Notes: generated by a model not told the origin, from the letters alone. Shown: positions 1,922 through 43,412, counted from the first letter of the stretch. The stretch is DNA of 64,000 nucleotides from Candidatus Brocadia sp. WS118 (GCA_007618135.1 PHFX01000006.1:1-64000); one strand, 5' to 3'. Made by a program: numbers and translations.

Positions 1922-3139
1922 ATGGGAAAAGGGTTTTGGGGAGTAGGAGTAGTAAGTCTTACAATCTTTTTAAGTTCTTGTGTTTCCACTCAGACACAAG
2001 TCAAGGAAACGAGGGCGCCTGAAGTAAAAGCAGCGCCTATGCAAGAGGAAGCAAGGCCGCGGGGAATACCCATTCCTACACCGGTAGAAACGGTTGCTCC
2101 CGAGGGTCAAATAACTGAGCCAGCAGCACCGGAGGCACCGGCAATACCGGAGGTCCCAGCAGTACCGGAAGCTCCTGAAGCACCTAAAGCACCGGAGATG
2201 CCGGAAGTTCCCGCAGAACCGGAGGCTCCTTCAATGCCAGAAGCCCCAGCAGTACCGGAAGTTCCTGAAGCACCTAAAGCGCCGGAGATGCCGGAAGTTC
2301 CCGCAGAACCAGAGGCTCCTTCAATGCCAGAGGCCCCAGCAGTACCGGAAGTTCCTGAAGCACCTAAAGCATCGGAGATGCCGGAAGTTCCCGCAGAACC
2401 AGAGGCTCCAACAATGCCAGAGGTACCAGCAGTACCGGAAATTCCTGAAGCACCAAAAGCGCCGGAGATGCCGGAAGTTCCGCCAGTACCAGAGGTTCCT
2501 GAAGCACCCGAGCCTCCTTCGATGCCAGAGGTCCCGGCAGTACCAGAAATTCCTGAAGCGCCCAAAGCGCCGGAGATACCGGAAGTTCCTGAAGCACCAG
2601 CAATGCCAGAGGCCCCGGCAATGCCAGAAGTTCCGCAAGCCGCTGCCCCAGCAATACCTCCAGTAATACCGCAGGAGGAAAAGGTGGAAGCATTACCTAT
2701 GGAAAAAAAGGAATCCACAGATGAGACACCACATAAATGTGCTACTTGTAATAAAGAAACGGGGGAAGGACACATCTGTGGTCTTACTACGCTTTGTCAG
2801 CAATGCAAAGAAGAAGTTGGCAGTGGTCACATCTGTGATTTGACATTCTTTTGCAAAGATTGCAAAAAAGAGGTGGGAGACGGACATGTTTGCGGAATAA
2901 CTACTTTTTGCACAACCTGTGAAGAAGAAGTTGGTTCCGGTCATATCTGTGATATCACTTACTTCTGTTACGATTGCGAGAAAGAGGTGGGAGATGAGCA
3001 CATTTGTGGTATCACCTCTTTTTGTCTTGCCTGCAAGGCAGAGGTCGGAGAGGGACATGAATGCGGAAAGACCTATTTCTGCTTTGACTGCGAGAAAGAG
3101 GTACCCAAAGATCACCAGCATGAACAGTCGGCAAAGTAA
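1922..3139 (+). CDS. Repeat-built lipoprotein: proline-rich stalk plus tandem CxxC/GHxC modules
   Basis: Predicted lipoprotein of 405 residues; no named family recognised. The N terminus is a lipoprotein signal peptide with lipobox LSSC (Cys about residue 20). Residues about 55-245 are a Pro/Glu/Ala/Val stalk with a 30-residue (90-nt) period built from PEVPEAPKAPEM-type units. The C-terminal part from about residue 265 has seven 19-residue modules of the form CxxC-x4-7-GHxC (for example CKDCKKEVGDGHVC); the last is degenerate and ends DHQHEQ. Six modules each offer three Cys and one His, a zinc-ribbon-like or other metal-binding pattern. They are not CxxCH haem sites. A strong AAGGAGGG site lies at 1909-1916, and a terminator-like hairpin follows the gene. 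Likely anchored in a membrane facing the periplasm, with the stalk as spacer and the Cys/His end binding metal or a partner; this role is inferred. Confidence 0.8.
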   Translation: MGKGFWGVGVVSLTIFLSSCVSTQTQVKETRAPEVKAAPMQEEARPRGIPIPTPVETVAPEGQITEPAAPEAPAIPEVPAVPEAPEAPKAPEMPEVPAEPEAPSMPEAPAVPEVPEAPKAPEMPEVPAEPEAPSMPEAPAVPEVPEAPKASEMPEVPAEPEAPTMPEVPAVPEIPEAPKAPEMPEVPPVPEVPEAPEPPSMPEVPAVPEIPEAPKAPEIPEVPEAPAMPEAPAMPEVPQAAAPAIPPVIPQEEKVEALPMEKKESTDETPHKCATCNKETGEGHICGLTTLCQQCKEEVGSGHICDLTFFCKDCKKEVGDGHVCGITTFCTTCEEEVGSGHICDITYFCYDCEKEVGDEHICGITSFCLACKAEVGEGHECGKTYFCFDCEKEVPKDHQHEQSAK

Positions 3140-7355: not shown

Positions 7356-7805
7356 ATGGAAATAGCTCGTGCTTCAAAGAGAGGGGTTTATTGCCTCATT
7401 GTTCAACTCCTCCAAAGGTCTTCTCTCGAGATCGGACGCCTGGGTGCCTTTGATTTCCCGGCAGGTTTTTATGTCTATGTGGGGAGTGCACAAAACAACC
7501 TGGAACGCAGGATTGAAAGGCATATACGGCAAGAAAAGAAGATGCGCTGGCATATCGATTATTTGTTACAATATGGATGTGTAGTCTCTGTTCACACGTA
7601 TGCCGGTGGAAAAAAGAAGGAATGCATACTGAGTCAAGCAATCGGAAAGATGAAAGATGCCTCGGTACCGGTGAAAGGATTTGGTTCATCGGATTGCTCA
7701 TGCAATGCACACCTCTATTATTTTCGGCATGCGCCTGTGATATCCCGGCTCAAATTAGACCTTCGGCGACTTTCCCCCCGTTTACGGGGGGATTATGGGG
7801 GGTAA
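7356..7805 (+). CDS. GIY-YIG-like DUF123 protein whose 3' end lies in a dispersed repeat
   Basis: DUF123-family protein, related to the GIY-YIG nuclease fold. The family pattern runs RGVYCLIVQL, GRLGAFDFPAGFYVYVGSA, NNLERRIERHIR, then MRWHIDYLL and a Cys-rich SSDCSCNAHLYYF. The main domain of about 130 residues appears intact. The last roughly 16 codons (LRRLSPRLRGDYGG) and the stop codon lie inside a dispersed GC-rich repeat that also occurs at 19066-19149 and 43185-43265, so the native C terminus appears to have been replaced or extended. Molecular function is not certain: DUF123 proteins are sometimes fused to endonuclease III, which suggests a nucleic-acid role. Confidence 0.75.
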   Translation: MEIARASKRGVYCLIVQLLQRSSLEIGRLGAFDFPAGFYVYVGSAQNNLERRIERHIRQEKKMRWHIDYLLQYGCVVSVHTYAGGKKKECILSQAIGKMKDASVPVKGFGSSDCSCNAHLYYFRHAPVISRLKLDLRRLSPRLRGDYGG

Positions 7806-7822
7806 TTGAAATTCCTGAACAT
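7753..7822 (+). repeat. Dispersed GC-rich hairpin repeat, copy A
   Basis: First of three copies of a 70-84 nt element that starts around AATTAGGCCTTCGGCGAC, contains a CCCCCCGTTTACGGGGGG hairpin and ends GGTAATTGAAATTCCT. The others are at 19066-19149 and 43185-43265, all on the plus strand. This copy is shorter, lacking one C-tract, and provides the end of the DUF123 reading frame. Confidence 0.85.
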
Positions 7823-7852
7823 CATGATTTGAGCAAAACTATTTTAACAATC

Positions 7853-8099
7853 TCAATCCCCTGCGCCCAATTCTTTAACCATGCGGTATTTGATGTCGTA
7901 GTTGATGCCTGTCCTGAACAAAGCCGAAGGGATGAAATCTAATGTCTCATCGGTGAAACCATGATGCCGAACTAATACCTTGTTGATTTTCTGTAATTGT
8001 CCCTTACACCTTTTATTTTCATTTTGCAGTTTCCTCTATCCTTTTCCCCACTTCTTCCGGTTTTCTGGCAACGGCATATTCCCATATTCCATAACTTCC
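7853..8099 (-). pseudogene. Probable remnants of one or two small genes
   Basis: Two stretches on the minus strand read as protein-like but have no start codon. One (about 8021-8099) encodes GSYGIWEYAVARKPEEVGKR followed by IEETAK and a stop. The other (7853-8035) is an open frame of about 60 codons containing LVRHHGFTDETLDFIPSALF. In the first an ATG overlaps the TGA stop, as in toxin-antitoxin pairs, but the frame starting there ends after 16 codons. This looks like decayed accessory DNA downstream of the helicase gene. No family was recognised, and chance open frames remain possible. Confidence 0.25.
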
Positions 8100-8199
8100 T
8101 TAATACTTGATTAAGGATTTCTGTATTGATTAAAAGTGCTCTAATTTAGTTTATCCATCCGATTGCCTCAGTTGCAGATCAGACGTCCTAATTTTGCAC

Positions 8200-11100
8200 T
8201 TAAGATTTAAGAAATTTGATTACTTCATTACGGTTTAACTCCTCATGATAAGATTGATTACCATAACTTTTCAAGCAGTCGTAACAAGCCTTTTCACAAA
8301 TACATTTTTCACAAACCTCTTGTGCTTCTTTTACAACCTGTTCCCAATTATAGTAACCTTCCTTTACAAACCCTGAACCGCCTGGGGCACGGTCATAAAG
8401 GATGATCTCAGCGCCAGTCCTGTTGTTTTTATTAGCCTGCCAACGCCAAGAGACACCGATATCGGATGGGTCAATATCCAGAGCAAGACACAAACCCCTT
8501 TGCAGAGCAAAAGCTAGCGATTCAACAGATGGAGGAGCCGTAATTGGACGGGCAATGAGACAAAAACTCTGGAATTGATGACCATAGGCTAACGGCTTTG
8601 TCCAAGGTTGCTCGTTTGGACAGTCCATCGATCCCAAGGACTCCCTTAGTCTTTTATGTCTCCTGCCTGCCCTAAACCCATGTTTCGGTTCACTCCAGCC
8701 ACAATCCTTGCAAAGCATGAATCCTTCGTTTCCAGGTCCTTTGTTGTATCGGAATAAATTTCCTTCCTCACTCAACGCCAAACGAAACAGTCCGACACCA
8801 TGGAATCTAGTTTCCTCAACAGAATCAATAAAATGCGTTATGGTTTGTCGTTGCCGAATCAACGTACTTCGCCTATATCTCGCCTCGCCCTCGCTACTTC
8901 TGCTAACTCGCACGCTAAAAGACGAAGGTTCAACAAAGGGATCGATGTATTGTGTTGTAATTGCCCGTTGGCATACAGAACAATTTCCAACAAGGGGATC
9001 CTGTGTGGCAGAAGTGCGTATTTGCTCACAACTGGGACATTTTGAATACCACTTCCGTTCAGGTTTATCCGTCTTACTTGCCACATAAAGTCCTGCACTT
9101 GTGAAAACCTTTTTGTGGGCAATGACTTGGGCACCCGGCGCGAATTCAGCAATTGCGATCCCACGGTCACGACTCAATTCTACATCAGAGTCCCGCGACC
9201 AACGATTCCAGCCAGTTTCCAAGGTCACAACATCCAAAGGAAATGCGTAGCGCGGTAGGAACCCTCGCTTGGCCAATACATCTATAACATCGCTACTGAG
9301 AAGCTTCTTTATAGAATCGGCAATACTTAAGGCCTGGCTGTCAAGTCCTGCGTTTTGGAGTTTTTTACGCTCATCCATGAGTGCAGTCAGTTCCTCGGCA
9401 ATCTCGTCAAGAACCTTTTTATACTTCTCTCGTGTCTCTGCTTTAATGGTATTAGAATCTGGGGTTGCAGAAAGCAGTGAACGTCCTGCCTTAGTTTGAA
9501 AAATATCAGCTTCGCCAACTTGTTCAAGCCATTGCAAGAAGTCCAAAAATAGATTAGTTGGTCGAATCTGAAACCAGTTATCTGGAATATTCGCTCGCGA
9601 ACTCAAAGGCAAAAAAGCCTCTAAGCGAATTTGTTGTTTTACCTCACCAAGGGCACGTTCATCGGCAACTTTGATCCTTAGGAATTTTGCAAAGACAACG
9701 GCGTTGAAATGTTTCTGAGCGATGAATTTGTTTTGCGTAAAGACCGTAGGTGTTCGGACTTCACCAGACATTAGGCGTGGGGGATCATTCCATGCATCGG
9801 CGTCGTATTTCGTTCGGCGGCATAGAGTGACACAAACGGAATTTTTGTCTTTGCCGCGACCCGCACGACCAACCCTTTGAACGTAGTTGGCACTTGTCGG
9901 AGGTGCGTTACGAAGCAGCACCTTTTGGAGATCGCCTATGTTGATACCCATCTCGAAGGTAGTCGTGCTACTAAGTAAGTTAACTCCCTCAGCGCGGAAC
10001 TCATCTTCAATCATTTTGGCTAAATCCTTGCTTATTTGAGCGGTGTGCTCTTCAGATTTCAAAGTGGTGAATTTTGGCTCTACTTTGTCTGCTACCCATC
10101 GGGCGATTATATTTTCCTTAGATGAATTAAATGGCGAAGCCTCCAACTTTCCTTCGCACTCTTTGCGAGGACAGCTTTGACGAGCAGAGTATGCAGTCAC
10201 AATGCCGCAACGGCTGCAAACGTATCGGGATTCAGCCTTGATAACAAATAGCCTCTCGTGGTCGAGTTTCCATTTTCCCTTATTTTCTATTAGCAAAAAC
10301 TTAGAAGTAAGAAAATTCCAGATTTTTTCTGCGAGAATGAGTATTTCATCTGAAGGTAAACCGAGCAGACGTCGTAAATAATTAGTAATGAAATTATCGT
10401 GGTAGCTACCGTCCTTATTGAGATGAGGTAGCCATCCTCGCGCGTTTTTGATTCCCTCGAGACGTAATACGTAACCAATATCAGCAGTAACTCGTCCAAA
10501 TGCGGGAGCATCAGGTTCTACGCGGCCTTTGGGAAGAGTAAATACCTTTCTCTGTCGCATATATCCAAGCAGCACTTGCAAGGCACTGGTGGATTCCTGA
10601 AGTGTAAGTTGTGGTGCATTAAGTAAAGAGTGAAAGGTCTCTTTTTCGCTATCATTGAGACGATACTCTACTGCCACTAATCCCAAGTCCTCTGCGGATT
10701 CACGAGCAGAATCCGGAATGGCAAAATAACTAAATGTCTCTGCAATCCAAAGGTTACGCTTTCCTTTTGCGTCTAATTCTTCATCTGGGAAACGGGATAC
10801 AGGTAAAAAGAAATCTGGTTCGTGCCTATCTGATTGTGGGTCGGCAAAGTCAGCCAAGCGTTCGTCAAGGTTGACTAAATCTACAGGTTTCGTTTCTGGA
10901 TTGATAATTTTTACAATTTTTCGTCCCATGTCATGAGAAAATGTTTCTTCCTCCAACAGAGAAGGAAAAGCCGCTGCGCGTTGACGATGGTCTGTAAAAC
11001 AAAGCAATTTGCGCGGTGGTTTACCGTTTCCCTTGTGCGGACTAACTTGGAAGTGTGAAAGAGGAACAGCCATAGCCAAGCCCGTCTCATCGTCGGATTC

Positions 11101-13101
11101 CTGAAATCGCCGAACAGGTTCGAGACCGGAGGCATTTCGCGCCCCGCAGTTTGGACAATACGTTAGTTGTTTCTTCTGCTGGCTGTATAGGTTTTCCCTG
11201 TCACTCGATCTTCTAGAATGGGGACATTGGCGGTGAAATATTTTTATTTTGCGAATATGAGGTGTCTCGCAAACACAATTGTCGCCCGCGCCTTCGTCTT
11301 TCTTCTTTCCACAAACGACACACCATTCCAGTTCGGCAGGTTTAAGAAACAGGTCTTCCTGATCATCCTCATCTTCATCGGCCTTCGGTTGCGATGGGTA
11401 AGGTAACTCATCTTCAAGGCTGAAATAGGACCAAAAGGAATCGGCTGCCCAACCTAAGTCGGTACTGAATGAGTCAAAATAAGGCTTAGACGAGTTGCTC
11501 CCATTTTCGGGATTTTGGGCACGGCGCGGTCCTAAATCCTGTAATGCTCCATAGAGATAACCGCATTTACGACAGGTAACGACCTCAACAAGTTGCGACC
11601 TGCGACCTGCTCGATAACAATCTGGACAGTCACCCTCAGGTGTTTCGGGGTTGTTTTTACGGGACACAAAGAAAGCAGGTTTTCCACCACGGAGGCCGGG
11701 GCACTGCTTATGCAAACAAATATGCAACCCATCTTGTGTCCTCACGAAGTAATGCAACCGGGTAGGCAACAAGTCTTCGTGTGATTCATCCATCTTTGCA
11801 GCGGCAACGATTTCCAATAAGGCTTGTAAACCGTCCTCAGCTCGCGGCTCGTTTGGCCATAACTGTTTAGCAGCTTCGCTCAGTAGCGTGGGTTTGGTCA
11901 ATATTTCCTTACGAAGATGGTACAGATTTTCATCGTAGTAAAGCAACGAAACAAGAGAACCATCTGAGCTATTATGTAGACGCACATCGGCTTGAGGGTC
12001 ACTACGTAAGGATTCAGCGGCTTTTATGTATTGTAAAGGTTTCGAGCGATATTGGGGTTGCTTCAATATTGGTTCTGCCATCGTTCCATAAATGGGATTA
12101 GATTCCGAAAAATCCTCTCCAAAGAGATCAGATGCGAACTTACGAACTTTCTTCCTGCTTTCTTCATTACCTTGTTTGCCCAATGTTGCCGATGTGGCAA
12201 TGCAGGTCAATGTTTCCAATCCAAGACGATCTTTAAGCCGTCGAATCAGAAATGCAATTTCTGTAGCTTGCACACCACGGTAAGCATGAACCTCGTCAAG
12301 AACTAAGAACTTAAGACGTGCATTCTCAAAAATCGGCGCATCTACAGGACGCTCCAACAGGTATTCCAGCATTGAAAAATTTGTTATGAGTACATGAGGA
12401 GGGTTGGCACGGATGGCATCGCGGTGATTAAGACGATTCGGAACATCACTGCGCAACTGTTTTTCTAAGCGTCGCTCCACCTCTCGTTCTAATTCCTGTT
12501 GAGTAAGGGTTTGATCAGTCAGTTGATCACGGATGGTTTCCCTAAGTCGCTCTTCATATTTAATCTGTGAATTAGGAGTTTGTCCCGTAAAGCGGGCAAA
12601 GGTGATTTGAGGATGATCCTTCAGCATTTGTTCCCACTCAACAAGCTGGTCGTTCACTAAGGCATTAAGTGGATAAATAATGACTGCGCGCAATCCTGGT
12701 GATAAATCACGAATTAAATCGTCAATGATCGGGATTTGATAGCACAATGTTTTACCACTACTTGTGCCTGTGGCGATAATGACATTCTTTCCGTCAAGTA
12801 ATAATTTGAGTGCATCAGTCTGATGTTTCCATAGCTCACGACCATTAAGCCGATTGTAAATCGTCTCAATTGTCTTTTCATGAAGTGGCAGAGCATTTAA
12901 AGGCTCACCTGGAGCGTAAATTTGTGATTTTTCCAAATACGGGCCGTTTACCAACTCTTCCGCAGTAAGCTTTTCTTCCCAAATTTGCCTTGCATTCTTA
13001 AAGACAGGGTGGAACCGATACTCGGCTTTGAGCAAGTCAAGATACGGTAAAAAAACCTCTTTCTGAAAGCGCGCAGTTAATGAATCCATAATTTTTGACA
13101 T
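8200..13101 (-). CDS. Very large DEAD/DEAH-box helicase with DUF1998 C terminus (defence-helicase type)
   Basis: A 1633-residue superfamily-2 helicase. Motif I TGTSSGKT is at about 111-118, the DEVH box at about 269-272, TSATLG at about 305 and motif VI QRVGRAGRG at about 1073. Between the two RecA-like halves lies a long insertion with several CxxC pairs (CRKCGYLYG, CVVCGKKK, CPNCGARN, CSRCGIVT), probably zinc-binding. The C terminus is DUF1998-like with APGGSGF and a CEKCICEKACYDC cluster. This architecture occurs in MrfA repair helicases and in phage-defence helicases such as DruE (Druantia), DrmA (DISARM) and DpdJ. The start overlaps the end of the 705-aa gene by 25 bases and has its own AAGGGGG-type ribosome binding site, so the two genes form a coupled unit. 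No methyltransferase, nuclease or Dpd gene is adjacent. Confidence 0.9.
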   Translation of the reverse strand: MSKIMDSLTARFQKEVFLPYLDLLKAEYRFHPVFKNARQIWEEKLTAEELVNGPYLEKSQIYAPGEPLNALPLHEKTIETIYNRLNGRELWKHQTDALKLLLDGKNVIIATGTSSGKTLCYQIPIIDDLIRDLSPGLRAVIIYPLNALVNDQLVEWEQMLKDHPQITFARFTGQTPNSQIKYEERLRETIRDQLTDQTLTQQELEREVERRLEKQLRSDVPNRLNHRDAIRANPPHVLITNFSMLEYLLERPVDAPIFENARLKFLVLDEVHAYRGVQATEIAFLIRRLKDRLGLETLTCIATSATLGKQGNEESRKKVRKFASDLFGEDFSESNPIYGTMAEPILKQPQYRSKPLQYIKAAESLRSDPQADVRLHNSSDGSLVSLLYYDENLYHLRKEILTKPTLLSEAAKQLWPNEPRAEDGLQALLEIVAAAKMDESHEDLLPTRLHYFVRTQDGLHICLHKQCPGLRGGKPAFFVSRKNNPETPEGDCPDCYRAGRRSQLVEVVTCRKCGYLYGALQDLGPRRAQNPENGSNSSKPYFDSFSTDLGWAADSFWSYFSLEDELPYPSQPKADEDEDDQEDLFLKPAELEWCVVCGKKKDEGAGDNCVCETPHIRKIKIFHRQCPHSRRSSDRENLYSQQKKQLTYCPNCGARNASGLEPVRRFQESDDETGLAMAVPLSHFQVSPHKGNGKPPRKLLCFTDHRQRAAAFPSLLEEETFSHDMGRKIVKIINPETKPVDLVNLDERLADFADPQSDRHEPDFFLPVSRFPDEELDAKGKRNLWIAETFSYFAIPDSARESAEDLGLVAVEYRLNDSEKETFHSLLNAPQLTLQESTSALQVLLGYMRQRKVFTLPKGRVEPDAPAFGRVTADIGYVLRLEGIKNARGWLPHLNKDGSYHDNFITNYLRRLLGLPSDEILILAEKIWNFLTSKFLLIENKGKWKLDHERLFVIKAESRYVCSRCGIVTAYSARQSCPRKECEGKLEASPFNSSKENIIARWVADKVEPKFTTLKSEEHTAQISKDLAKMIEDEFRAEGVNLLSSTTTFEMGINIGDLQKVLLRNAPPTSANYVQRVGRAGRGKDKNSVCVTLCRRTKYDADAWNDPPRLMSGEVRTPTVFTQNKFIAQKHFNAVVFAKFLRIKVADERALGEVKQQIRLEAFLPLSSRANIPDNWFQIRPTNLFLDFLQWLEQVGEADIFQTKAGRSLLSATPDSNTIKAETREKYKKVLDEIAEELTALMDERKKLQNAGLDSQALSIADSIKKLLSSDVIDVLAKRGFLPRYAFPLDVVTLETGWNRWSRDSDVELSRDRGIAIAEFAPGAQVIAHKKVFTSAGLYVASKTDKPERKWYSKCPSCEQIRTSATQDPLVGNCSVCQRAITTQYIDPFVEPSSFSVRVSRSSEGEARYRRSTLIRQRQTITHFIDSVEETRFHGVGLFRLALSEEGNLFRYNKGPGNEGFMLCKDCGWSEPKHGFRAGRRHKRLRESLGSMDCPNEQPWTKPLAYGHQFQSFCLIARPITAPPSVESLAFALQRGLCLALDIDPSDIGVSWRWQANKNNRTGAEIILYDRAPGGSGFVKEGYYNWEQVVKEAQEVCEKCICEKACYDCLKSYGNQSYHEELNRNEVIKFLKS

Positions 13102-15194
13102 ATACGAACCCCCTTCTTTTTCAAATATCTTTCAATTTCACCGCGTAGACTCAAATCCCAAATCATCTGTAGATATGGTGGTACTCCTCTCTTCTCTATA
13201 ATTTCAATGATAGGCAATTGGTTAACTGGTATTTTGTGATACATAAGACGATACAATCCCCAAAGTATCGAAGGATTACCACAATATTCCAATTTGCAGT
13301 TATTCTGTTTGAAAGGGATAAATGTAGCGCGTGATTCTTTAATCATCCATCTGCGTCCTTTCTGTTCGAGTAATCCCTCATTTGCGTATTTACGAAGCAA
13401 ATAGTACGAAATTCTCAGATTAGGTGCTATGACGTCTTTAGCCAGCATCAAATCATCCCATTTCATTCCTTCGCACTTCATTCCTGTAGTGGGTTGACAA
13501 AGAAGGAACCATGGAAGGAATACTCCAGGAAGATTCGCCCAGCATTTTCCCATACCATATTTTGGATCATCCTTATATATTTTAAAGGTATCCTTAAATT
13601 CAGGTGATTCCACAGAGAGAATTCTTTCTCCCTTTAGACTAGGAGTACTATATCTAAGTTCAGTAAAACTTCTCATGCTACCATGTTTAATTTCCACGAC
13701 AGGTCGATTACTGCCCCACTCCCAAAAACAGAATTCTTTGTCATCATTTTCCTGTGGGGGAAGGTATCGCCATTTTCCACTAGCTGATTTGCCATCTATG
13801 AGGACTTTGAATTTCTTATATAATTCTACTTCATTATTTTTGAAATAACCATAAGGTAGTGAGACACATAAAATAGGCAATTCCTCAATTTTGATACTGT
13901 TTTGTAAATGTTCGAAATATGCGGCATGTGATCTTTTCCCAATAAAGAATCGAGCTTCGATTTTGGAATCTGTGCGAAATCGAATTTTGGATATGCTGCC
14001 GTCATACTTCAAAGAGAGTTCAGCGAATTTTTCAACAGGCCAGAGGTGTGTTATAAAACAAGCTGTCCCATCCTGCAGTTCGATTGATTCATTAACTGGA
14101 TTTTCATCCTCCTCAAACCCTTTTCGAGATATTTCCTTAATTTTTTCCCGTGAAATAAGTGCATAATTTCGGAGAGGTAGTATGTCACGACGGCTGCTAA
14201 CCAATCGTCCACCAATCTCTAAATCAAAAAGCCCCCAAGGTTTTAATCCCTTTATTTTTTGTGTTTCACTTTGTTGGCCAGATTCAAGTTTCAAAAACAA
14301 GCTGGTTGCGAAAGCAACTGAATTCAAAACCAATTCATCAGGTGTGGAAGCGGCTTTTTGAGTACGATCACCAATACGCCAGGTTGCAGGCAATTTATCT
14401 GTAGCAATTCCGGGCAAGTGAAGGCTAATACAACTTCGCTGCTCATTCCAAACAAGTCGAGCACGATCTTCGAAGAGAGAATCGGGGGCTTTAGGACGAA
14501 GAAATTCAGCCGTCTCAGGAACTTCGTCAAAATACTCTGAGCGCAGCTTTAAACCATTGATTGTTAGTCTTTCGTCTTCAATGAGTATCTTACGTGCATC
14601 AAGCATTTCCTTAATCAAGGCACTTGCAACTTCCCGATTATCAATTAAAAACTTCTTAAGCCGTTGTCGACTACCTGCACGTTTCCCTACAAATTCAACC
14701 CATTCCTTATCTGGCAGAATTTTCCAATCATCCCGCCATAAAGCCCATTCACAGATTTCGAGGAATCCGTCCCACAACGAAAGCGGAATACCAATATGAT
14801 AAACTGCTGAACCGACAAAATCCGTCCTGTTTTCGCGACGTTGTAGTCTTAATCCGAATCTTTCAGCCACTTTTGAGAAAGCCAAATTAATTTCGGTTTG
14901 TTGACTGGTGGGAAGTGATTCACTTCCAATAGCTTTGGCAAACTGAGGCCAAAACGTATTTTCATCATATTCGTAAAAGGCTAAACCTCCATAAAGCACT
15001 GCCAAGCAGTATGTGTATCGTTCTAAATTGCTCCGCCAAGTTTTCCACTCAGCCTTTACTGCGGCAAGAAAATCGTCCCATTTTACTCGGTCAGGAATAA
15101 CAGGCAACAAAGCACCTGCCTGTTGCCGTTTGGCCATATCAATTCTGAGAAATTCTTTCTCAAAAATGATTTCATAATTTTGTAGCCTGTTCAT
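13077..15194 (-). CDS. Uncharacterised 705-aa partner of the DUF1998 helicase
   Basis: Not recognised as a named family. The protein is soluble-looking, with no signal peptide or membrane segment, and rich in Trp. Visible features are an N-terminal helical region with GGLAFYEYDENTFWPQFAKA, then VGSAVYHIGIPLSLWDGFLE, a central beta-rich region, and near residues 590-650 a winged-helix-like stretch (LRISYYLLRKYANEGLLEQK) with GRRWMI following. Position and coupling to the helicase suggest a dedicated partner that recognises DNA or another target, analogous to the large unknown proteins beside DruE in Druantia-like systems; that comparison rests on organisation, not on detectable similarity. A GGGAAAG sequence precedes the ATG. 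Upstream lies a gene-free 1-kb stretch, so this is probably the first gene of the module. Confidence 0.8.
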   Translation of the reverse strand: MNRLQNYEIIFEKEFLRIDMAKRQQAGALLPVIPDRVKWDDFLAAVKAEWKTWRSNLERYTYCLAVLYGGLAFYEYDENTFWPQFAKAIGSESLPTSQQTEINLAFSKVAERFGLRLQRRENRTDFVGSAVYHIGIPLSLWDGFLEICEWALWRDDWKILPDKEWVEFVGKRAGSRQRLKKFLIDNREVASALIKEMLDARKILIEDERLTINGLKLRSEYFDEVPETAEFLRPKAPDSLFEDRARLVWNEQRSCISLHLPGIATDKLPATWRIGDRTQKAASTPDELVLNSVAFATSLFLKLESGQQSETQKIKGLKPWGLFDLEIGGRLVSSRRDILPLRNYALISREKIKEISRKGFEEDENPVNESIELQDGTACFITHLWPVEKFAELSLKYDGSISKIRFRTDSKIEARFFIGKRSHAAYFEHLQNSIKIEELPILCVSLPYGYFKNNEVELYKKFKVLIDGKSASGKWRYLPPQENDDKEFCFWEWGSNRPVVEIKHGSMRSFTELRYSTPSLKGERILSVESPEFKDTFKIYKDDPKYGMGKCWANLPGVFLPWFLLCQPTTGMKCEGMKWDDLMLAKDVIAPNLRISYYLLRKYANEGLLEQKGRRWMIKESRATFIPFKQNNCKLEYCGNPSILWGLYRLMYHKIPVNQLPIIEIIEKRGVPPYLQMIWDLSLRGEIERYLKKKGVRICQKLWIH

Positions 15195-16247
15195 TAATTC
15201 TTTCCCTATGCCATAACTTCTTTTTTACATAGAAATAAAGGACATCCGATGGAATTAAGCGACAGCCAGAAAAGCTTGTTAATATTATAAAAGCCATCAG
15301 GTTTTTTTGAAGTTTATCTTTATACCTAACTTGCTATTTACGGTCATCTGCTACAAAAGTACCGCTCCACGTTCAATAAAAAAGCGGGACATTAGCACTT
15401 CTTCAGCTATTTTCATTACGGTTATCACAAATGTGTCTTTTTTTATCATGATGCTATTATCTCTCTTGAGGTAGATAAAACTTCCTAAATTTCCACTTTT
15501 TTTCAACCTTTGAAATGTTTCTATCTTTATAGTATTGGTACGAAAATATCCCTCAACCCAACCCTCTCCCACAAAGGGCGAGGGAACTTTTCCTCCCTTA
15601 ATAGGGATGATTTGGTTGAGGCATTGCCGCGCTAAGTAATTCAGTTATCTATTTTACCACGATAACTGTAAATGTGTGATGCAAGAGGTTTGTAATAGAG
15701 ACATGAAATTCCATTTTCATGGAAACTAACCGATTATCATAACAGTTTACAGGAACAAAGCAATACAAAATTACGGTGTTTATCAAGCCACTTTCAGAAA
15801 CATGATACCCTCAAAAACGTTTACTCCTAATAGCTAAAGAGGGTGGCACGGACAAACTCTGTTTGTCCGTGTTGCACTTGCACAACGTTGTTTATGAATT
15901 ATCCATTTTGAAACGTAAATATATAACACCTGTAACTATATACAGGTATAAAATCATACGCAATATCGCAGAATCACGGACAAGCTAAGCTTGTCCGTGC
16001 CACCCCTTCATAGCACACGGGAAAAACATCTTTTCTGTAAGTTTTTCTTCGTGCCCGTCGTGTTCTTCGTGGCAAAAAGAGACAAGAGATAAATTGTCTT
16101 GAAAGCCTTGAAAATACTGATAGAATCAAAGGAATTAAAAAACATAAGAATACGTAAAAACCCCTGAATATTTAAGTAGAACTATTAACGTACAAAAGTA
16201 TTTCTTTCCCTGAATTTGATTGGATGAGCCCATGAGGTTATTTCCCC
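15195..16247. other. Gene-free 1-kb spacer with repeats between the helicase module and mutS
   Basis: No convincing gene was found. A 73-codon minus-strand frame at 15351-15572 is low-complexity and overlaps a repeat-like segment (CCCTCTCCCACAAAGGGCGA at about 15562-15581), so it is not called. The spacer also holds the palindromic doublet at 15841-16006 described separately. Promoters for the helicase operon (minus) and mutS (plus) must lie here. Confidence 0.6.
15841..16006. repeat. Pair of inverted palindromic repeats, REP-doublet or small MITE-like
   Basis: The left end (15841-15877) begins GGGTGGCACGGACAA and folds on itself through GTTTGTCCGTG. The right end (15975-16006) is CACGGACAAGCT / AAGCTTGTCCGTG followed by CCACCCC, the inverted form of the left end. 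The two hairpins are thus terminal inverted repeats around about 100 nt of AT-rich DNA, total length about 166 nt. No coding capacity lies between them. This matches a REP/BIME-type doublet or a tiny non-autonomous mobile element. Confidence 0.75.
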
Positions 16248-18857: not shown

Positions 18858-19372
18858 CTGTTTCGAGGTACATCTCAATTTTTGTATCATTTGCTCCACA
18901 CGCAATAAACTTTGCAGGAGAGTCATCCTTTTTGCGCGTTACTTATTTTTCGACATTTACGATGATTCCCGGTATCACCGTCTCACACTGATTTACACTC
19001 GCACCGATTTACCGTTGACTTTAGTTTTTAAAATGTTTAGCATATTTGGTAATGTTGTAACTTTGAATCAGGCCTTCGGCAACTTTCCCCCCTGTTTCCC
19101 CCCGTAAACGGGGGGATTATGGGGGGGGGTAATTGAAATTCCTGTACATTGAACCAGGCCTTCGGCAGCAACTTTTTTTGATAATCAGTAAATGTCCGGC
19201 ACAAACAACCCCCTTGCCCCCTTTAGTAAGGGGGATTTTTAAAGTTTTCTCTTTGATTAAAGGGGAGTTTTTCAAGTCCCCATGTGGTAAGGGGGATTAC
19301 ATTCAAAATCAGTTTCTTGCCATCATTCACGTTAGGGTTGTTATACGGTTACTACGGTAAGGAGTTTTTATT
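18858..19372. other. Repeat-rich spacer between mutS and folE
   Basis: The spacer contains no convincing gene. It holds copy B of the hairpin repeat (19066-19149), a short partial second copy of its left end (CCAGGCCTTCGGCAGCAAC at about 19155-19173), and a further C/G-tract repeat at about 19209-19300 in which CCCCCTTGCCCCC and AAGGGGGAT tracts alternate. Small plus-strand frames here are translations of repeats. Confidence 0.6.
19066..19149 (+). repeat. Dispersed GC-rich hairpin repeat, copy B
   Basis: Second copy of the element at 7753-7822 and 43185-43265. It is almost identical to copy C but has a longer G-tract after GGGGGGATTAT, and the TGAATCAGGCCTTCGGCAAC left end differs at a few bases. 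It is intergenic, between mutS and folE. Confidence 0.85.
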
Positions 19373-43108: not shown

Positions 43109-43412
43109 ATTCCTCCTACTCTTTATTAAAAAGTTTCATTCAAATAACTATTTCCCAATCTGTCTTATACCCCTCATGCTGATTAATTAGGCCTTCGGCG
43201 ACTTTCCCCCCTGTTTCCCCCCGTGAACGGGGGGATTATGGGGGGTAATTGAAATTCCTATACATTAAATTAGGTTGGGTTTTAAAAGACAAAAACCCAA
43301 CGACTTTTTTCTTTGAATTTATCTTTTGAGACGTAGCGCCGATCCCTTGTGGCCGGCCAATTGCTTGGGTTAAACCCCAGCGCTACAATTCACATCGAAA
43401 TTCCTTTACTAT
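43109..43412. other. Repeat-rich gap between tgt and yajC
   Basis: Holds copy C of the hairpin repeat (43185-43265), a separate hairpin GTTGGGTTTT / AAAACCCAAC at 43274-43301 followed by CTTTTTT on the plus strand, and a short inverted repeat GTAGCGC / GCGCTAC at 43333-43386 around a GGCCGGCC core. No gene. The GTTGGGTTTT hairpin could act as a terminator on the plus strand, but no plus-strand gene precedes it. Confidence 0.6.
43185..43265 (+). repeat. Dispersed GC-rich hairpin repeat, copy C
   Basis: Third copy of the element at 7753 and 19066, in the same orientation. It is intergenic between tgt and yajC and contains CCCCCCGTGAACGGGGGG. Confidence 0.85.

Follow-up and report, generated by a model that had tools for sequence, protein, structure and literature searches.

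A rare, mobile gene pair in Candidatus Brocadia sp. WS118 encoding a DruE-family helicase and a 705-aa partner, most likely a shortened form of an established type of anti-phage defence

The DNA analysed here, hereafter the window, is a 64,000-nt stretch of Candidatus Brocadia sp. WS118 (PHFX01000006.1:1-64000), in which a first-pass annotation made from the sequence alone had marked a large helicase gene and the gene of a 705-aa protein as a possible uncharacterised two-gene defence system. Is this pair a new system, a variant of a known one, or a module with a function other than defence? The two open reading frames were found at exactly the coordinates claimed for them (Table 1), and homologous open frames were retrieved from three further genomes, with amino acid identities of 67-72% for the helicase and 52-59% for the partner. 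As chance reading frames would not give homologous frames in three other genomes, both genes are real, and they form a compact two-gene operon with the partner gene first. The orthologous pairs originate from a member of the host's order (G054), a gammaproteobacterial MAG (L003) and a Thermodesulfovibrionia MAG (L004), with the partner directly before DruE. The 25-nt overlap originally assigned to the two genes holds only if the upstream ATG of the helicase is used; the start in all three relatives corresponds to the window's fifth codon, which gives an overlap of 13 nt. The partner diverges faster than the helicase, as has also been reported for DruH relative to DruE (PMC13192584).

Table 1. 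Coordinates of the gene pair, its domains and motifs, and the surrounding insertion in the window
Feature	Position	Strand	Basis
Accessory DNA inserted between DUF123 gene and mutS, containing the module	7738..15638	.	Empty site in congeners; right-flank match
1633-aa DruE-family helicase gene	8200..13101	-	PADLOC DruE3 8.7e-175; Pfam DEAD, Helicase_C, MZB; tree; conserved start probably 13089
MZB/DUF1998 Zn-binding domain	8272..8514	-	Pfam; 23 residues remain to protein end; no PLD nuclease after
Helicase motif VI, QRVGRAGR	9856..9879	-	
Helicase motif II, DEVH (DEAH in three relatives)	12286..12297	-	
705-aa DruE partner ('mini-DruH') gene	13077..15194	-	First gene of the operon; ORF; relatives 52-59% identical in three genomes
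Conserved 13-nt gene overlap, ATGGATTCATTAA	13077..13089	-	Identical overlap in L003, L004 and G054
C-terminal alpha/beta domain, partner residues 609-701, weak eIF1/SUI1-like fold	13092..13370	-	VIA-align Z 7.1 to eIF1
Predicted Ig-like beta-sandwich, partner residues 237-320	14235..14486	-	Low-confidence AlphaFold2 model; many Ig domains matched by VIA-align (Z 5-6)
Partner residues ~50-390, probable homology with DruH and larger DruE partners (their N-terminal halves)	14025..15047	-	hhalign

The domain layout proposed for the helicase was recovered with Pfam, namely DEAD (residues 92-180), Helicase_C (1013-1083) and MZB/DUF1998 (1530-1610) domains along with 10 CxxC motifs, MZB (MrfA Zn-binding) being the equivalent of DUF1998. 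A long Cys-rich insertion separates the two RecA halves, with CxxC at 492, 510, 594, 649 and 962. The top PADLOC models were DruE3 (8.7e-175) and DruE1 (6.2e-166), and the DruE models, at 582 bits, outscored those of the DpdJ, DrmA and BREX helicases by hundreds of bits. Among PDB sequences, the best match was a 2108-aa helicase (9tu7_Y, 304 bits), with YprA/MrfA matched at 90 bits. The PADLOC and Pfam matches support the earlier identification of a defence-type DUF1998 helicase and place the 1633-aa protein in the YprA-like DruE family. The DruE3 profile aligned to it only up to position 1673 of 2055, and since the protein stops just after MZB/DUF1998, the C-terminal PLD nuclease of E. coli DruE, a type III-A feature, is missing.

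The phylogeny of the helicase was inferred from 30 sequences with a quick method, yielding a tree that has several long branches and lacks the III-B reference GIH50614.1. Druantia helicases were split from those of ARMADA, with SH-aLRT values of 99 on both sides, and the window helicase was located on the Druantia side. The four window-type helicases, which are 67-72% identical among themselves, formed one clade (support 100) with a long stem, the order of which was not fixed by this tree relative to the DruH-type, DruA-type and cyanobacterial clades or to a clade of three other DruE proteins from the host's phylum. The host genome also harbours a second DruE/YprA-like helicase frame (G000:C240:20347-21570; a 1745-aa open frame, DruE1 5.2e-39), possibly belonging to another defence system.

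Comparison with related genomes bore out the suggestion that the module resides in accessory DNA. The DUF123 gene and mutS are 45-80 nt apart in five congeners (G003, G004, G005, G008 and G009), and 8.4 kb lies between them in the window. The right flank (15639-16233) is common to congener G002 at 94%, with different genes beyond it in G002. None of the ten congeners searched (0/10) encoded the partner, and occurrence among relatives was patchy (2/59); the pair is a mobile, rare module. In the window, the module is flanked by DUF123 and mutS. As first noted, no methylase, DISARM or Dpd gene is adjacent, nor is any BREX gene. Beside the module, whether in the window, in L003 or in L004, there was neither a PglX-like methylase nor a BrxHII/RapA-like helicase gene, and the operon contains no DruA-D or DruM/F/G genes of Druantia types I and II, only the 705-aa gene preceding DruE. 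Judged by eye from translations, the L003 pair is near rpoD-like and dnaG-like genes, and that of L004 is near secA and a macrodomain gene; the latter, downstream of the pair (L004:15898-16752), encodes a possibly DarG-like protein.

Several other elements were observed in the window. An intergenic repeat of about 50-80 nt is present in three copies that are 80-89% identical (7753-7822, 19095-19149 and 43185-43265), one of which begins just past position 7737, where conservation of the DUF123 gene stops, and seems to have taken the place of that gene's 3' end. Upstream of mutS is a 31-nt inverted repeat (15841-16005) with arms 87% complementary and 103 nt apart; it is kept in G002, where a gene resembling a REP-associated transposase is located about 1 kb away (L065:10928-11944). 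The protein encoded at 1922-3139 has an extended Pro-Glu-Ala repeat region, after which Cys-rich units, each about 18 residues long, recur.

The 705-aa partner had been described as belonging to no recognised family, and searches against PADLOC, Pfam, NCBIfam and PDB sequences indeed returned no model or sequence match; its three orthologues likewise matched no PADLOC model. Neither of the DruH/YjiT models (PADLOC DruH3 and NF038336) matched the window partner, nor did PADLOC DruH3 match any of the three orthologues, and reference DruH proteins, as a positive control, matched both models strongly. Remote relatives were sought with the genes preceding DruE in other genomes as the comparison set. 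In G134 and G203, both genomes from the host's phylum, this gene encodes proteins of 1176 and about 1381 aa that are mutually related (1.5e-40), and the profile of the 705-aa family matched this pair with an hhalign E of 8.4e-6 over residues 56-341 (2.8e-5 in a single-sequence run). A combined profile of the 705-aa family and the larger partners matched a 967-aa DruE partner from a cyanobacterial plasmid (E 9.5e-7, 313 columns) and DruH (E 6.9e-4, 308 columns), the latter collinearly, with 66-387 aligned against 77-438. When 126 other proteins of at least 400 aa were used as a null set, the next score was 27.9 against 43.9 for DruH, and the sole score above that of DruH (47.8) belonged to a true relative, the cyanobacterial partner of L006. 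A test of the N-terminal part against 144 null proteins gave 33.4, compared with a null maximum of 20.2.

The matches to the larger partners, the cyanobacterial partner and DruH were always N-terminal and at the same position. The matched region of the 705-aa protein, residues ~50-390, consists of a helical domain with an FWP...GIP motif, then an Ig-like domain with a PWGLFDxExGG motif. Signatures common to the 705-aa protein and the larger G134 and G203 partners are a Trp block (EYDENTFWP, REGEFW or SQGDFW) with GIP about 55 residues on, and PWGLFDxExGG or PWLAFDxxTG in the Ig-like region. In DruH, the alignment takes in the helical region at the N-terminus and the larger part of the first Ig-like domain (residues 257-464, PMC13192584). 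Because direct comparison of the 705-aa protein with DruH gave an E of 0.13, not significant alone, and the link runs via intermediates, the remote kinship of the partner's N-terminal half with that of DruH is graded likely, not proven. The initial view that the partner was unrelated to known subunits found no support in profile comparison; a match to a known subunit such as DruH, named in the first-pass annotation as the sign of a pair that is not new, was obtained remotely and in the N-terminal part only, with no match to a DruH model and none in the C-terminal part. DruA-type partners (nw955 and pp558) and the partner in L042 were rejected as relatives, their weak matches being below the full-length null or inconsistent. 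The actinobacterial plasmid matches in the DruH search were mostly neighbours of ARMADA or DISARM, and relatives of the 705-aa family were not found in viral, phage or plasmid collections. The only further family members were two fragments, one at a contig end in G379 and the other, very weak, in G1042.

Structural prediction was less informative, in that the AlphaFold2 models of the partner were of low confidence (pLDDT 54). Their outline, with helices at residues 1-206 and an Ig-like sandwich at 237-320, fits the profile result at that low confidence. Since the models stay at this level, the Foldseek listings provide no evidence of fold; the absence of 9tud (DruH) from them excludes nothing. 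The eIF1-like resemblance of the last ~90 residues was not significant in Foldseek and had no sequence match among the other partners. For the C-terminal 280 residues (425-705), no profile match to any part of DruH or other partners was obtained, and no nuclease fold was recognised in the partner, again from models at pLDDT 54. This region is nonetheless well conserved, with invariant Cys551, Cys566, Cys633, Cys638 and His705. Residues 672-1119 of E. coli DruH constitute a C-terminal region with an ATP/Mg site and a dimer nuclease; counterparts of its nucleotide-site residues (672-1067) were not detected in the 705-aa protein. The partner is thus likely to be a 'mini-DruH', with a predicted N-terminal helical domain and Ig-like domain(s), then 280 unmatched residues.

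Of the known systems, Druantia type III (DruH and DruE of E. coli and M. smegmatis) bears the closest comparison. The two arrangements have in common two genes with the partner first and a short overlap, 13 nt in the window and 17 bp in M. smegmatis (PMC13316683), a DruE-family helicase with MZB, a partner that is more divergent than the helicase, and probably the N-terminal half of that partner. They differ in that the window partner has 705 rather than ~1120 aa (1132 aa in M. smegmatis), matches no DruH model and has a C-terminal half unrelated by sequence. E. coli DruE has a PLD nuclease that both the window and M. smegmatis proteins lack, the latter (1667 aa) being functional nonetheless (PMC13316683). 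DruE is also most often without a nuclease domain in the phylogenetically distinct Druantia III-B branch (Bell et al., PMC12458937), though in our tree, which was built without GIH50614.1, the window DruE forms a lineage of its own. ARMADA and DISARM likewise employ a YprA-family helicase, but the window has no adjacent methylase or BrxHII-like gene and its helicase is apart from ARMADA in the tree.

The cyanobacterial plasmid operons (L005:2173-6004, L006:1387-5857 and L007:2286-5917) resemble the window pair in that their 967-aa partner has the N-terminal ~310 columns, but comprise three genes, with a DruE of 2082-2123 aa and an extra 307-aa protein. The two 967-aa-type partners tested matched no PADLOC model, though the DruH-like N-terminal module is present. 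Other DruE operons in the host's phylum encode a coiled-coil, SMC-like partner of at least 1428 aa (L038:483-9441) or a 942-aa partner without a PADLOC model match (L042:724-8854).

Owing to the likely remote relationship of the partner's N-terminal half to DruH, we read the pair as a Druantia type III-like module that is both divergent and shortened. It is not filed as a member of type III, because the DruH models were not matched and GIH50614.1 lies outside the comparison. Of the original proposal of an uncharacterised two-gene defence system, the compact operon, the defence-type helicase and the uncatalogued partner have stood; given the remote DruH link, the pair is most likely not an entirely new system but a shortened, uncatalogued form of an anti-phage defence already known. 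In E. coli, DruH carries Ig-like domains, probably acts as the sensor and has a nuclease that depends on dimerisation; its DruE unwinds DNA with a 3' tail and cuts it through PLD domains (PMC13192584). In M. smegmatis, DruH and a nuclease-less DruE stop phage DNA circularisation and replication (PMC13316683). The sensing role, DNA substrate and defence function that we infer for the window pair would follow a similar course. The 705-aa protein would occupy the place of DruH, and its helical domain and Ig-like region, the part in common with DruH, would most likely detect infection or pass on its signal and regulate the helicase. DruE would load onto 3' single-stranded DNA of the intermediates that arise as phage DNA replicates or circularises, and would unwind these or block them. 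Neither protein has a recognisable nuclease, hence the block could be driven by the helicase, as with the nuclease-less M. smegmatis pair, by host nucleases or by the partner's C-terminal region that matched nothing. On balance, we consider it probable that the pair is a mobile module which defends against phage along these lines, as a kind of Druantia type III. A further proposal, for which our confidence is tentative, is that a mini-DruH and a nuclease-free DruE suffice as a minimal Druantia, in which the N-terminal module (FWP...GIP helical and Ig-like) would be the common DruE-activating element of DruH, cyanobacterial and larger partners, and the C-terminal effector parts would be exchangeable.

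The pair might instead simply represent the already named Druantia III-B branch, and hence nothing new. The helicases of that branch mostly lack a nuclease domain (PMC12458937) and the window DruE likewise ends after MZB, yet it is separate from another nuclease-less DruE (L039) on its long-stemmed lineage in the tree without GIH50614.1, and the partner is far from the 1132 aa of M. smegmatis DruH; we regard this explanation as somewhat unlikely. Less likely again is a reversal of roles, in which DruE is the sensor and the partner's C-terminus the effector, with a new enzymatic or nucleic-acid-binding domain. The missing DruE nuclease, the unique and well-conserved residues 425-705 with their invariant Cys and His, and the toxicity of M. 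smegmatis DruH alone, which is neutralised by DruE (PMC13316683), are all compatible with such a reversal, but a nuclease fold was not recognised in the low-confidence partner models.

That the pair serves DNA repair in the manner of MrfA/YprA appears improbable. It has the MZB domain in common with MrfA, matches YprA at 90 bits and is inserted next to mutS, but the DruE models score far higher, congeners have an empty site instead of the module, and no YprB-type exonuclease partner is encoded. Moreover, YprA helicases of the repair branch are described as having either MrfB/YprB as a partner or no conserved gene neighbourhood (PMC12458937). A decayed or inert relic might be expected among remnants and repeats such as those surrounding the module, yet both frames are intact and of full length in four genomes, with motifs and overlap conserved, making this the least credible of the alternatives and very improbable.

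Druantia type III has been described in E. coli and M. smegmatis, with a large partner of ~1120 aa, and the sensor and nuclease roles within it are still being defined. As a divergent module of this kind, the 705-aa partner and nuclease-free DruE would, to our knowledge, be the smallest such pair. The pair could show directly whether DruE helicase activity alone stops phage, and which part of DruH communicates with DruE. Several of the partner types encountered here escape all PADLOC models, indicating that DruE partners are being missed by current defence catalogues.
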